A DNA stretch of 64,000 nt from Methylobacter sp. (GTDB lineage Bacteria > Pseudomonadota > Gammaproteobacteria > Methylococcales > Methylomonadaceae). The DNA lies in contig JAGXGY010000042.1 in the NCBI GenBank assembly GCA_024636505.1, positions 62,001-126,000 of the forward strand, in the 5' to 3' direction. The translations under genes were made by a program, and so were the position numbers. Below are positions 4,228 to 50,194 of this stretch, piece after piece. Position 1 is the first letter of the stretch; each line of letters starts with the position of its first letter. Below the pieces are notes generated by a model. That model was not told the origin of the DNA. It saw only the letters and a program-made list of their open reading frames with translations, and did not search any database.

Positions 4228-4613
4228 GCGATAACTCCTTTGTAGAGGGAATAACCGCCGCCAACAAGCTCTAATTGTTGGGCGGTGGAATGTATCAAGT
4301 TAGAGCTACCGGCAAAGGAACCGGCCAGCCGTTTAACGGGCTGCTCAATACATCCCACCATAACTGAATGCAAACGGCATGAAGCCGTTGGTGTTTTGGG
4401 TGGGCACAAAAAAACCACGTTTGATAGTGGCCATTTGTGGCCTTTGCGCGGGGCTCTAATCCCGACTTTCGTTTTTTGCGAAAGCGGGGACAGATTAAGC
4501 ACTCGCTTAGTGCTTGTCAAGCCTCTTTGTGTGTTGTTGATGCTTTTGGGTTTTTTCCAGCGCCTTTTTGGCTGGCGGTTGGTTCGGCTTGGTTTGGTCA
4601 ACGGATCGTTCAT
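4224..4613 (-). CDS. Ash-like (P4 Ash family) phage protein
   Basis: C-terminal ...CRLHSVMVGCIEQPVKRLAGSFAGSSNLIHSTAQQLELVGGG resembles the Ash-type pattern, next to an AlpA-like gene and P4-type integrase. Confidence 0.45.
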   Translation of the reverse strand: MNDPLTKPSRTNRQPKRRWKKPKSINNTQRGLTSTKRVLNLSPLSQKTKVGIRAPRKGHKWPLSNVVFLCPPKTPTASCRLHSVMVGCIEQPVKRLAGSFAGSSNLIHSTAQQLELVGGGYSLYKGVIA

Positions 4614-44805: not shown

Positions 44806-46207
44806 AGCCGAAACTGTCTGGATCATCGATGACGACAAATCGATACGCTGGGTGGTAGAAAAAGCCCTGCAAAAAGCGGACATCATCACCCGTAGTTTTT
44901 CCGGTGCGACCGAGTTGCTGAGCGCCTTGCAAAACTATCAACCCGATGCGCTGATTACCGATATTCGTATGCCCGGCATGGACGGACTGGAGCTTTTGGA
45001 CAAGATTCAACTGAGTCACCCGAATCTGCCGGTTATTGTGATGACCGCGCATTCCGACCTGGAAAGCGCGGTGTCGGCATTTCATGGCGGTGCGTTTGAA
45101 TACCTACCCAAGCCTTTCGATATTAAGGAAGTCGTCGATCTCGCCCATAGAGCCTGTATTCATAGCCGACAACAGCAAATCCCGGATTCCCTGAGCTATG
45201 CCGCAGAAGAATCCATGCCGGAAATCATCGGCGAAGCGCCGTCCATGCAGGAGGTATTCCGCGCTATCGGCAGACTGGCCAGATCGCATATCACCGTACT
45301 GATCAACGGCGAATCGGGAACCGGCAAGGAACTGGTCGCCAAGGCCCTGCATCGCCACAGCCCCAGAGCAGGCAATCCGTTTATTGCGCTGAATATGGCC
45401 GCCATCCCCAAAGACCTGATGGAATCGGAACTGTTCGGTCATGAAAAAGGGGCTTTCACCGGCGCGCAATCACGCCGCGCCGGACGTTTTGAGCAGGCCG
45501 ATCGCGGCACCTTGTTTCTTGATGAAATCGGCGATATGCCTGCCGAACTGCAAACCCGTTTATTGCGGGTGCTGGCAGACGGCGAGTTCTACCCGGTCGG
45601 GTCATATGCATCGGTTAAAGTCGATGTGCGTATTATTGCTGCCACCCACCAGAACCTTGAAACACTGGTAGAACAAGGCCGTTTTAGAGAAGATTTATTC
45701 CACCGCCTCAATGTAATCCGCATCCACATCCCGCCGTTGCGAGAGCGACAACAGGACATCCCCTTGCTGCTGCGCTACTTTTTACATCAGGCGGCGCTTG
45801 AGCTGAATACCGAGATCAAGGTGTTAAAACCGGATGCGGAGGCTTTTTTAAGCACCTTGGACTGGCCGGGCAATGTCAGGCAACTGGAGAACAGTTGTCG
45901 CTGGCTGACGGTGATGGCCTCGGGCCGGGAAATTCATCTGCACGACCTGCCGCCCGAATTGCTAGCTACGCCGGCAGAAAGAAATGCTGCCGAAAACGGC
46001 TGGGAAACCTTGCTCAGAAACTGGATAGACCAACAGTTATTGTGCGGAAACAAGACTGAAATCGCCAAAAAAATCATCCCTGCCGTTGAAACCATTCTGA
46101 TTGAAGCGGCATTAAACTTTACCCATGGAAAACGCCATGAAGCGGCTGTTTTACTGGGTTACGGCCGGAATACATTGACTCGGAAAATCCAGGAACTGGG
46201 GATATAA
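44798..46207 (+). CDS. ntrC: Nitrogen regulation response regulator NtrC (GlnG)
   Basis: [18 protein letters not shown] receiver, GAFTGA AAA+, FIS HTH. Start MTKAETVW at 44798 overlaps the end of ntrB. Confidence 0.95.
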
Positions 46208-46442
46208 CTGCAAAAGCAATAAGGAAACATCCCGTTGGGATGAAGCCAACGATTGTGGGAAGGGGTCTGCATCCCCTCCCCAATCCGCGCCCGACAAAGC
46301 AACATCGCTTCGCTCGCTCCTTTCGGCCTAAAAGCCGAGGTTTAAACCAATTAAGTTAAGGGCTTGGCATGAGCTGAGCAGGAATAAATTGTGTCGATAG
46401 CCATGCTTTCGCAGAGGGAAAAATAATAACCCACTAAGACAC

Positions 46443-46488
46443 TGCGACAATATGTCACATTCCCATGTTTATTATTTATCGCTAATAT
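46443..46488 (+). promoter_or_regulatory. Palindrome (TGCGACAATATGTCACA) plus sigma-70-like promoter TTCCCA-N17-TAATAT, unit 1
   Basis: Same architecture 201 bp downstream. Confidence 0.65.
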
Positions 46489-46494
46489 AGGTTC

Positions 46495-46577
46495 AACTCT
46501 TGAAATGTAAATTTCCTCCTCGGAATTCAGAGCTTTATATCCTTCTCTAATGCGGCCTAATCAGCCGCATTTTTTTT
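46495..46577 (+). ncRNA. Putative small RNA 1 of a tandem pair
   Basis: ACTCTTGAAATGTAAATTTCCTCCTCGGAATTCAGAGCTTTATATCCTTCTCTAATGCGGCCTAATCAGCCGCATTTTTTTT; CTCT...AGAG stem and terminator hairpin with 8 T. Confidence 0.65.
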
Positions 46578-46643
46578 GCCCGGAAGCTTGGCTGCTGTTA
46601 GTTAAATCGACGTTGGATCTCATAACCCTGCGACGTTCTGACA

Positions 46644-46689
46644 CGCGGCAATTTGCCACATTCCATTGCCCGGCATTTGTCAATAAAAT
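46644..46689 (+). promoter_or_regulatory. Palindrome (CGCGGCAATTTGCCACA) plus sigma-70-like promoter TTCCAT-N17-TAAAAT, unit 2
   Basis: Homologous to unit 1. Confidence 0.65.
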
Positions 46690-46695
46690 ACATAC

Positions 46696-46775
46696 AACTC
46701 TTGAGATGCAAACTTCCTAGGAATTCAGAGTGCTATATCCTTCTCTAATGCGGCCTAATCGGCCGCATTTTTTTT
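46696..46775 (+). ncRNA. Putative small RNA 2 of a tandem pair
   Basis: ACTCTTGAGATGCAAACTTCCTAGGAATTCAGAGTGCTATATCCTTCTCTAATGCGGCCTAATCGGCCGCATTTTTTTT. Confidence 0.65.
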
Positions 46776-46865
46776 GCCTACCGGAATGCGAGCGGAAGCT
46801 TTGACGATATGTCAGCCAAATATGTAAACAAGGCGTGTCATAACGCGTTGCTTAGCCAGGAAAAA

Positions 46866-47213
46866 CTAGCCTGCCTTAAAACCGACAAAAAAGCCGCCAG
46901 CCCCGCTGACACCCTTACTGGTAATTCGGGTCAATCTATCCACTAAAAATCCGCCGGAGTTTTTTGCAACTTCGGTCGCGGCACTGGCGACATGCTGCAG
47001 TTTTTGATCGGTTATATCGATAACATCATAATATTCCGCGATAAATAACAGCACCATTATTGCGCCTCCCAGAAACAATGCTATGCGCAACATTTTTTTG
47101 GCAAAATAACCGACTGCCAGTCCGATAATAAAGGGCGCTCCGACATTACCCACTAAAAAAGCCGAGGAAAAAATGTCGCTAGAAGACGCCGCTTCGACGG
47201 GATGGGTGTTCAT
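46866..47213 (-). CDS. FUN14-like small membrane protein
   Basis: FIIGLAVGYFAKKMLRIALFLGG...GGFFVGFKAG; likely start MNTHPVEAA at 47213. Confidence 0.7.
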   Translation of the reverse strand: MNTHPVEAASSSDIFSSAFLVGNVGAPFIIGLAVGYFAKKMLRIALFLGGAIMVLLFIAEYYDVIDITDQKLQHVASAATEVAKNSGGFLVDRLTRITSKGVSGAGGFFVGFKAG

Positions 47214-47542
47214 AGTTCTGAATTTCCTCTGTTGCGATTGTTGAAATGACACCCGGAATTGATGAGTACAAAACCCCATGGCTACAAGTCGTTTAGCCAA
47301 TCATTAGGTTCTTAAGCCTGCTTGAGTTGTTACCGGCCAACAAAAAACATTTTACCACCGAATTTAATCACATCAGAAAACAACACTATACTGGCAATAT
47401 ATAAACTAACATGGCCTGCTGAATATCAAAAACAAGCGTTCATTAACAATGTTATCGGCTTCAATTGATAGATTAAGGGTACAATATTTTTCAATTACCA
47501 CCACAAAATACCTGCCAAATCTTTAGGTTGGACGAGAGCATT

Positions 47543-50194
47543 ATGTATTCAGTTGAAGTTTTTCCATGGAATAAAAATTTCGAGGTCGGAGTACCGCTGA
47601 TCGACGAACAGCACCAAAAGTTGGTCGAACTGTTAAATGTGCTGGCCGGCCATCTGGCCTATCAATCCGATATTCCTACCTTAAACAATGTTTTCAACAA
47701 TTTGGCTGAATACGCCATCTACCATTTCCAGGCGGAAGAAGCCATTTGGCATTCATTCTTCCCTGAAGATCCCTGGGAAACAAAGCATAAAAACGATCAC
47801 AGGCGGTTTCTGAGCACTGTAAACAGAATCATGAGCGAAAAAACCACCAGGCCGCTGGATCAGGTCATTGAGGAAATTCTCACCTTTCTAACCCAATGGC
47901 TGGCCTTTCATATTCTGGACACCGACATGCGCATGGCCAAGGTGGTGTTGGCGGTGCAATCGGGCATACCGTTAGACCAAGCTAAAACGCAAGCCGACCA
48001 TGAGATGAGCGGGGCGATGAAGCAACTGATCGAAACCATGCTGTCGATGTTCGACACCCTTTCTGCTCGCGCCATGCAACTGGCAAAAGAGGTGATTGAT
48101 CGCCAGAAGGCTGAACAGGTCAGCCAGGATGCTCTGGATCGACTCCAGCAAATCGCCAGTCAAGTGCCGGGATTGGTGTTCCAGTTTCAGCTGTTTCCCG
48201 ATGGCCGCACCCGCATTCCTTACGCCAATGAGGCCATACGCTCTATTTACCGGGTCAGTCCGGAGGACGTCAGCGAAGATGCATCCAAGATACTGGCCGC
48301 CTTACATCCTAACGATCTGGAAGCGTTCAAGACTTCTTTTAAAATATCGGCACAGGACTTAACCCCCTGGTGTCAGGAATATCGCCTGAAGTTTGACGAT
48401 ACCGCTGTTTGCTGGCTTTACGGCAATGCATTACCCCAGAAACAGTCCGACGGCTCGGTACTTTGGCACGGCTTCATTACCGACATCACCAATCAAAAGC
48501 AGAATGAGGTCGACCTTCGCATCGCCGCCACCGCCTTTGAGCTGCAGGATGCAATGCTGGTCACCGATGCCAATAATGTCATCCTCAAAGTCAACCAGGC
48601 ATTTACCCGAATTACCGGCTACAGCTCCGAAGAAGCCATTGGTAAAACGCCCAACTTGCTCAGCTCTGGACAGCATGACAAGCATTTTTATGCGGCCATG
48701 TGGGACAGCATCAATCGTACCGACGCATGGCAGGGCGAAATTTGGAACCGGCGTAAAAACGGCGAGATATTCCCGGAATGGCTTATTGTTACAGCAGTGA
48801 AAGATCACGATAACATGAATATGCCGGTCAATCATTATGTGGCTTCTTTTTCCGATATTACCTCACGCAAGGCCGCTGAAGAAGAGATTAAACAGCTGGC
48901 CTTTTACGACCCGCTCACCAAACTGCCCAACCGTCGTTTGCTGCTGGAACGGCTTAAACACAGCATCGAAGTAGAACGGCGCGACAGCAGCAAGCGCCTG
49001 GCATTACTGATGCTCGATCTGGATCGCTTTAAAGCCGTCAATGACAGCCTGGGACATTCTGCCGGGGACGAGTTACTGCAACAAGTCGCGGCACGCATAT
49101 CGACAAGATTGCGCGAGGTAGACTTGGTAGCGCGTTTAGGCGGCGATGAATTTGTTGTACTGCTCGAAGATATTTCCCATACGGAAGATGCCGCACGAGT
49201 GGCTGAAGAAATCATCCTGGTTTTAAGTAAATCGTTTCAGCTTGCTCAAAGCAACGATGTACAGATTGGCGCCAGCATCGGCATCAGCCTGTATCCAGAG
49301 CACGGCGGCAGTTATGAAATATTGATGGATCACGCTGATGCCGCATTATACCAAGCCAAAGATCAAGGGCGCGGCTGTTACGCTTATTTTTCCGAAGAGC
49401 AGACGCTCGCAGCCCGTGAACGCATTGCTCTGGAAACACGGCTGCGGCGGGCGATCGAACAACAGGAACTGCGTATTTTCTACCAGCCGCAGGTGGACAT
49501 TGCCAGTGGTCGCATTGTCGGCGCCGAAGCTTTAGTGCGCTGGCAACACCCGACAGAAGGATTGATTCTGCCGCTACGCTTCATTCCTGTCGCTGAAGAA
49601 ACCGGGCTTATTTTGGAAATTGGCGTCTGGGTGTTGCGGGAGACCTGTCGGCAAGGTCGTCTTTGGTTGGATGCAGGATTGCCGCCGCTCACCTTGGCAG
49701 TCAACGTTTCTCCCCAGCAATTCCGTCGCGGCAACATTAGCGCCTTGGTTGTTGCCTGCTTACGCGAAACCGGATTTCCCGCAGAGTATCTGGAATTGGA
49801 AATGACTGAAAGCGGACTGATGGAGAATCAGGATAACGCGATGAAATTGCTTAACTCGCTACGTTCTCAAGGCATCCGTCTTGCCATTGATGACTTCGGT
49901 ACCGGTTTTTCATCGCTGGCTTATCTAAAGCACTTTCCGCTGGATGTGCTGAAAATCGACAAAAGTTTTATCGACGACATTCCTCATCTGCAAGACGATA
50001 TGGAAATTGCCTCCACCATTATTGCGATGGGCCATATTCTGGGCTTTAAAGTTTTGGCGGAAGGCGTAGAAACCGCCGCACAACTGGATTTCTTGCGGCA
50101 ACAGCATTGCGATTTGTATCAAGGCTATATCAAAAGTCCACCTGTGTCGGCCGAAGCGTTTGCCTTGTTGTTACGGGAGCAAGGATTTGAGTAA
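47543..50194 (+). CDS. Hemerythrin-PAS-PAS-GGDEF-EAL protein
   Basis: N-terminal hemerythrin (WNKNFEVGVPLIDEQHQKL, HFQAEEAIWHSFF, HKNDHRRFL), RLGGDEF with upstream REVD I-site, EALVRW, DDFGTGFSSL. Confidence 0.92.
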   Translation: MYSVEVFPWNKNFEVGVPLIDEQHQKLVELLNVLAGHLAYQSDIPTLNNVFNNLAEYAIYHFQAEEAIWHSFFPEDPWETKHKNDHRRFLSTVNRIMSEKTTRPLDQVIEEILTFLTQWLAFHILDTDMRMAKVVLAVQSGIPLDQAKTQADHEMSGAMKQLIETMLSMFDTLSARAMQLAKEVIDRQKAEQVSQDALDRLQQIASQVPGLVFQFQLFPDGRTRIPYANEAIRSIYRVSPEDVSEDASKILAALHPNDLEAFKTSFKISAQDLTPWCQEYRLKFDDTAVCWLYGNALPQKQSDGSVLWHGFITDITNQKQNEVDLRIAATAFELQDAMLVTDANNVILKVNQAFTRITGYSSEEAIGKTPNLLSSGQHDKHFYAAMWDSINRTDAWQGEIWNRRKNGEIFPEWLIVTAVKDHDNMNMPVNHYVASFSDITSRKAAEEEIKQLAFYDPLTKLPNRRLLLERLKHSIEVERRDSSKRLALLMLDLDRFKAVNDSLGHSAGDELLQQVAARISTRLREVDLVARLGGDEFVVLLEDISHTEDAARVAEEIILVLSKSFQLAQSNDVQIGASIGISLYPEHGGSYEILMDHADAALYQAKDQGRGCYAYFSEEQTLAARERIALETRLRRAIEQQELRIFYQPQVDIASGRIVGAEALVRWQHPTEGLILPLRFIPVAEETGLILEIGVWVLRETCRQGRLWLDAGLPPLTLAVNVSPQQFRRGNISALVVACLRETGFPAEYLELEMTESGLMENQDNAMKLLNSLRSQGIRLAIDDFGTGFSSLAYLKHFPLDVLKIDKSFIDDIPHLQDDMEIASTIIAMGHILGFKVLAEGVETAAQLDFLRQQHCDLYQGYIKSPPVSAEAFALLLREQGFE

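Follow-up and report, generated by a model that had tools for sequence, protein, structure and literature searches.

Adjacent sibling small RNA (sRNA) genes have been described in Neisseria, where NmsR/NgncR_162-163 (78% identity) block ribosome-binding sites (PMC5362039, PMC9973317). The RegB/RegA system is a global redox switch. In Methylomonas sp. DH-1, it matters for methanol growth through feo, and deletion of regA lowers the tbdr and tonB operons indirectly, via intermediaries that the authors could not name; their paper mentions neither an sRNA nor a binding motif (PMC13274454). The open-licence literature that we searched describes no RegA-controlled sRNA. Here, we report a tandem pair of predicted sRNA genes from Methylobacter sp. 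and the previously uncatalogued RNA family to which they belong. We read them, with a probability of roughly 0.74, as RegA-controlled sibling trans-acting sRNAs whose CU-rich anti-Shine-Dalgarno segments would block translation of several mRNAs. Anatomy, family conservation, the coupling of operator and RNA, and the genomic link between operator and PrrA were all computed here.

Anatomy of the tandem units

In the window (a 64,000-nucleotide stretch of contig JAGXGY010000042.1), the two units form a direct repeat. On one side of them ntrC ends at 46207, and on the other lies a FUN14-family gene in convergent orientation (46866-47300; PF04930). Unit 1 spans 46443-46577 and unit 2 spans 46644-46775 (~135 bp each). 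An initial annotation, made from the letters alone, had described two homologous blocks of ~130 bp offset by ~201 bp; the offset is exactly 201 bp, and the units align with 78% identity over 134 bp (E, 8e-27). The order that it had read in both also holds: a 17-bp imperfect palindrome (its own reverse complement at 12/17 positions in each unit), an abutting TTCC(C/A), 17 bp, an AT-rich −10 element, a predicted RNA of 81 to 84 nt, and a terminator with T8 (Table 1). The predicted RNA 5′ end reads CAACUCUU.

Table 1. Positions of the predicted elements in the window
Feature	Position	Strand	Evidence
Operator 1, TGCGACAATATGTCACA, RegA/PrrA/RegR-type box with its midpoint near −43	46443..46459	.	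Motif matches; same letters as the prrB-adjacent site of this genome
Promoter 1, TTCCCA (46460-46465), 17 bp, TAATAT (46483-46488)	46460..46488	+	Sequence
sRNA 1, 84 nt including T tail, predicted start	46494..46577	+	Conserved block of 34 aligned copies starts here
CU-rich apical loop UUCCUCCUC of the sRNA 1 5′ hairpin, anti-Shine-Dalgarno-like (putative role)	46513..46521	+	Family alignment
Unpaired UAUAUCCUUCUCU segment 5′ of terminator 1, probable seed (putative role)	46536..46548	+	Near-invariant in family alignment
Terminator 1	46549..46577	+	Terminator scan; two-sided compensatory changes at three helix pairs, family-wide
Operator 2, CGCGGCAATTTGCCACA	46644..46660	.	PrrA, RegR and RegA motif matches
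Promoter 2, TTCCAT (46661-46666), 17 bp, TAAAAT (46684-46689)	46661..46689	+	Sequence
sRNA 2, 81 nt, predicted start	46695..46775	+	R1 model match; fold z-score
Probable seed UAUAUCCUUCUCU of sRNA 2	46734..46746	+	Same as copy 1
Terminator 2	46747..46775	+	Terminator scan

The initial annotation had called one shared stretch nearly identical, which was right about the sharing and too cautious about the degree: the two copies share TATATCCTTCTCTAATGCGGCCTAATC, the CU-rich segment plus the left arm of the terminator, without a single difference. The compensating hairpins that it saw are not present between these two copies; the apical loop of copy 2 is three nucleotides shorter through loss, and its CU-rich sequence is reduced. 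A scan of the region picked up four terminator-like sites, where shuffled sequences gave 0.5 on average, and both unit terminators lie on the right strand, each with its eight T. Folding z-scores against shuffles were −2.96 (sRNA 1) and −2.54 (sRNA 2).

A generic sigma70 scan flagged neither promoter, and the TTCC(C/A) −35 element is weak, which together fit an activator-dependent promoter. A small protein was ruled out, in agreement with the earlier remark that no open reading frame explains the region: an AUG within the RNA meets UAA at once in copy 1 and UAG shortly after in copy 2.

Two further features of the window were recorded. Adjoining the FUN14-family gene is a gene for a large protein with hemerythrin, PAS, GGDEF, and EAL domains (47528-50194, + strand), an oxygen-sensor-like c-di-GMP enzyme; these two genes also neighbour sRNA copies in several Methylobacter genomes. 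At 4278-4365 (− strand), there is a match to C4 antisense RNA (RF01695; 59.4 bits). C4 antisense RNA is known from P1/P7-type phages, and the match suggests a prophage-like region in this genome.

Spread and conservation of the RNA family

Rfam (gathering and relaxed thresholds) gave chance-level matches only in the region, none of them above the gathering threshold, and the initial annotation, which recognised no Rfam family, was correct. By nucleotide search of 40 relatives, the units are present in most of the genus. A covariance model of the kind that the annotation had proposed searching against related genomes was built from 34 aligned copies (model R1, which begins at the predicted first RNA base and excludes the operator). 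R1 matched in 146/251 Methylococcales genomes, almost all within one family, with 1 to 8 matches each and one to four in most. sRNA 1 scored 108 bits and sRNA 2 scored 100 bits, both copies being among the model's building set. Tandem arrays occur elsewhere, with two copies in Methylovulum (L210) and three in another genome (G007). Four tandem copies were also observed in one Methylococcaceae metagenome-assembled genome (MAG; L228:2364-3019), and eight R1 matches in one genome of the family (G520).

An exact pattern searched over 85,462 species genomes returned 100 stretches, and the titles listed were all consistent with Methylococcales. Names among them were Methylobacter, Methylomonas, Methylovulum, Methylotuvimicrobium, Methylicorpusculum, Methylomicrobium, and Crenothrix; the remaining titles listed gave Methylococcales or Methylococcaceae, or, for a few MAGs, only proteobacterium or Gammaproteobacteria. 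Cultured strains with the family include Methylomonas sp. LW13, Methylotuvimicrobium buryatense 5G, and Methylobacter tundripaludum SV96.

Genus-wide, four base pairs carry two-sided changes, a count reached by 8/500 shuffles. Compensatory changes exist across the family but are modest, the sequences in the alignment being too alike to show strong covariation. When the most distant members were aligned, no useful consensus structure emerged. In distant members, UAUAUCCUUCUCU is kept as AUAUCCUUC or UCCUCCUC.

The operator and its association with RegB/RegA

The palindrome was said by the initial annotation not to be Fur-like, and by reading it is a GC-flanked RegA-type palindrome. Its identification as a putative RegA/PrrA/RegR-type box, and a third unit beside prrBA, are additions to that annotation. 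Against the motifs of Rhodobacter sphaeroides PrrA, Rhodobacter capsulatus RegA, and Bradyrhizobium japonicum RegR (as quoted in PMC5506826), operator 1 matched at 11/12, 11/12, and 10/11 positions and operator 2 at 11/12, 11/12, and 9/11, respectively. A motif match by itself is weak, because RegA boxes are degenerate and PrrA matches of at least 11/12 occur at 11 places in the 64-kb window; the argument for RegA rests on genomic association.

Only three sites in the Methylobacter genome have zero mismatch to the degenerate pattern: the two operators and one between prrBA and msrA (G000:C14:20084), where the same 19-mer again leads into a promoter, hairpin, and terminator. The genes beside this third site have the ActS/PrrB/RegB kinase and the ActR/PrrA/RegA regulator as their best NCBIfam families (NF033791 and NF033792, both below curated cut-offs at 185.8 of 250 and 208.5 of 350 bits), with msrA on the opposite side. 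Across gammaproteobacterial genomes, the box was present in 51/369, with one control match. PrrA is encoded in 46 of the 51 box-bearing genomes (it was not detected in the other five) versus 75/318 box-less genomes; the Fisher p value of 3e-20 ignores kinship and overstates the evidence, because related genomes are not independent. In 26 of the 46 genomes that have both, a box and prrA are no more than 10 kb apart.

Outside the genus, the box stands 5′ of the RNA in 19/19 evaluable R1 matches, with 0 or 1 mismatch in 15 positions. It starts 49 to 50 bp upstream of the first RNA base in those relatives (65 bp in three), and the best of ~950 shuffled upstream sequences had 3 mismatches. Since R1 contains no operator, this coupling is independent of how the matches were found. 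The sRNA genes have two sequence features expected of RegA/PrrA-controlled genes, a box at the promoter and an encoded regulator linked to it. Set against studies in Acidithiobacillus and Rhodobacter, which reported no usable RegA consensus, the box would be a sharp RegA-type operator for gammaproteobacteria.

Other families of the order carry box-driven sRNA-like units, singly or in twos, next to prrB and/or msrA (L025/L035, L026, L027/L042, L028, L029, L030, and L109), and most such units keep UCCUCCUCU 5′ of the terminator. Comparison of the prrB-linked unit with R1 was not significant (E, 0.05 to 0.4), and homology to the ntrC-linked pair is thus not demonstrated. The distribution suggests that a RegA-sRNA module next to prrBA came first, the ntrC-linked pair being either derived from it or a parallel branch. 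Outside the order, the box mostly precedes protein genes, whose products are, by eye, TonB-dependent receptors and small proteins of the outer membrane or periplasm.

Individual loci outside the tandem pair were also noted. At L073, L075, L077, L112, L116, and L121, all outside Methylococcales, a RegA-type box stands before genes for TonB-receptor-like proteins and for proteins whose N-termini are rich in histidine (by eye), a hint that RegA may govern a metal/redox regulon in gammaproteobacteria. One genome (G362; L103 and L104) has ten RegA-box sites, many in two clusters ahead of small proteins, and some of its boxes are followed by a repeated TTTCCTCCATGGG(T/G)GTGTTG element.

Proposed function and related systems

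The following scheme, from expression and RegA binding through the direction of regulation to the use of Hfq and pairing with targets, is one that we infer. An over-reduced quinone/NADH pool (low oxygen or methanol growth) would lead RegB to phosphorylate RegA, and RegA~P on the palindrome would turn on sRNA transcription from the sigma70-type promoter. The box is centred near −43, where class II activators that contact sigma70 polymerase typically bind. Each ~82-nt RNA is predicted to comprise a 5′ hairpin, whose apical loop is CU-rich in most copies, the unpaired UAUAUCCUUCUCU, and the terminator, whose U tail would suit Hfq, itself encoded in the genome. The CU-rich segments would then pair with AG-rich Shine-Dalgarno regions and lower the translation or stability of several mRNAs. 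Two such segments, UUCCUCCUC and UAUAUCCUUCUCU, are exposed in most members, and both are complementary to Shine-Dalgarno-like sequences. In having two or more similar predicted sRNA genes with unpaired CU-rich segments, the locus agrees with the functional class of sibling anti-Shine-Dalgarno sRNAs. The evidence supports the initial reading, in which the sRNA genes are duplicated and co-regulated and a CU-rich segment could serve against Shine-Dalgarno sequences.

A limited pattern search for targets yielded weak candidates only and established no firm or conserved mRNA target. Within it, AGAAGGAT near ATG gave six own-genome matches versus zero in the control, as Shine-Dalgarno enrichment alone gives. 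Only one candidate protein was conserved. By eye it is NqrC-like, which drew attention to it, Na+-NQR being redox-linked; it was rejected, as the site overlaps the apparent end of the upstream coding frame and its conservation therefore proves nothing.

Four other explanations were weighed. That these are real sRNAs whose palindrome binds another dimeric regulator, one merely tending to co-occur with RegBA, would account for the greater regularity of the box compared with the degenerate RegA motifs of alphaproteobacteria, and its frequent place outside the order before TonB-receptor-like and small outer-membrane/periplasmic genes could suit a metal regulator. We nonetheless think it unlikely, given the proximity of box and prrA, their co-occurrence across genomes, and the fit of the PrrA, RegA, and RegR motifs alike; the half sites of a CRP-like regulator would be misspaced (7 instead of 6). 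It is quite unlikely that the RNAs, while RegA controlled, mainly sequester a protein or another sRNA rather than pair with mRNAs through anti-Shine-Dalgarno segments. Multicopy sRNAs can be sponges, and the limited target search established no conserved mRNA target, but among unpaired segments those conserved best are CU-rich and complementary to Shine-Dalgarno sequences across the order, and CsrA-type GGA motifs are not repeated in the loops.

Nitrogen regulation under NtrC and sigma54, comparable to that of NrsZ of Pseudomonas, is very improbable. The pair lies directly downstream of ntrC, and one copy's adjacency to ntrC is conserved in many Methylobacter genomes; against this, no −24/−12 site was found within 46208-46780 at up to 2 mismatches, the promoter spacing is sigma70-like, and members in the other genera inspected sit away from ntrC with the same box. 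The ntrC neighbourhood looks incidental, and a functional tie to ntrC is not supported. Remnants of a repeat or mobile element that merely resemble sRNA genes, which that annotation had named among the findings that would undo its reading, are extremely improbable: similar tandem copies and several copies in many genomes speak for such an origin, whereas the low copy number in most genomes, the fixed register of box, promoter, RNA, and terminator, and the conserved neighbours speak against it, and no transposon features were seen.

The sRNAs are concrete candidates for the DH-1 intermediaries, provided that DH-1, like its congeners, has them. A wider proposal, possible though on balance doubtful, is that Methylococcales RegB/RegA has a dedicated RNA arm, in which the best boxes drive sibling sRNAs, some of them by prrBA, as the intermediary for indirect RegA control of redox genes, those for TonB/receptor among them. 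Members of the RNA family are found all through the main family of aerobic methanotrophs among the gammaproteobacteria, cultured strains included, and the RNA family offers a candidate, testable route by which methanotrophs may adjust protein synthesis to redox state.

NrsZ of Pseudomonas is located near ntrC, and PrrF1/PrrF2 have a tandem layout. The Methylobacter pair shares its place with the former but lacks a sigma54 site, and shares the layout of the latter but lacks a Fur-type operator, as read from the sequence. Burkholderia RF02278 double hairpins and ncS25/RF02869 (PMC5688073) are likewise short RNAs with CU-rich unpaired segments, but ncS025 scores 18.7 of the 46 bits needed and RF02278 has no match. 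FnrS of Escherichia coli (under FNR) and the FnrL-bound sRNAs of Rhodobacter (PMC4263372) resemble the pair in being sRNAs under a global oxygen/redox regulator, but of another regulator class (the RegA response regulator here) and in another lineage. In the regulon of RegB/RegA (PrrB/PrrA, RegS/RegR, RoxS/RoxR), the published boxes fit the operator, and a box lies beside prrBA here; the published targets named are protein operons, whereas those proposed here are sRNA genes. The Neisseria sibling pair would be similar in working; it too consists of adjacent, similar sRNA genes (78% identity in both) with hairpins and unpaired segments, a likeness by description, and no Rfam match links the two. 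Unlike that pair, the Methylococcales family has a variable copy number and a redox regulator implicated by its operator.
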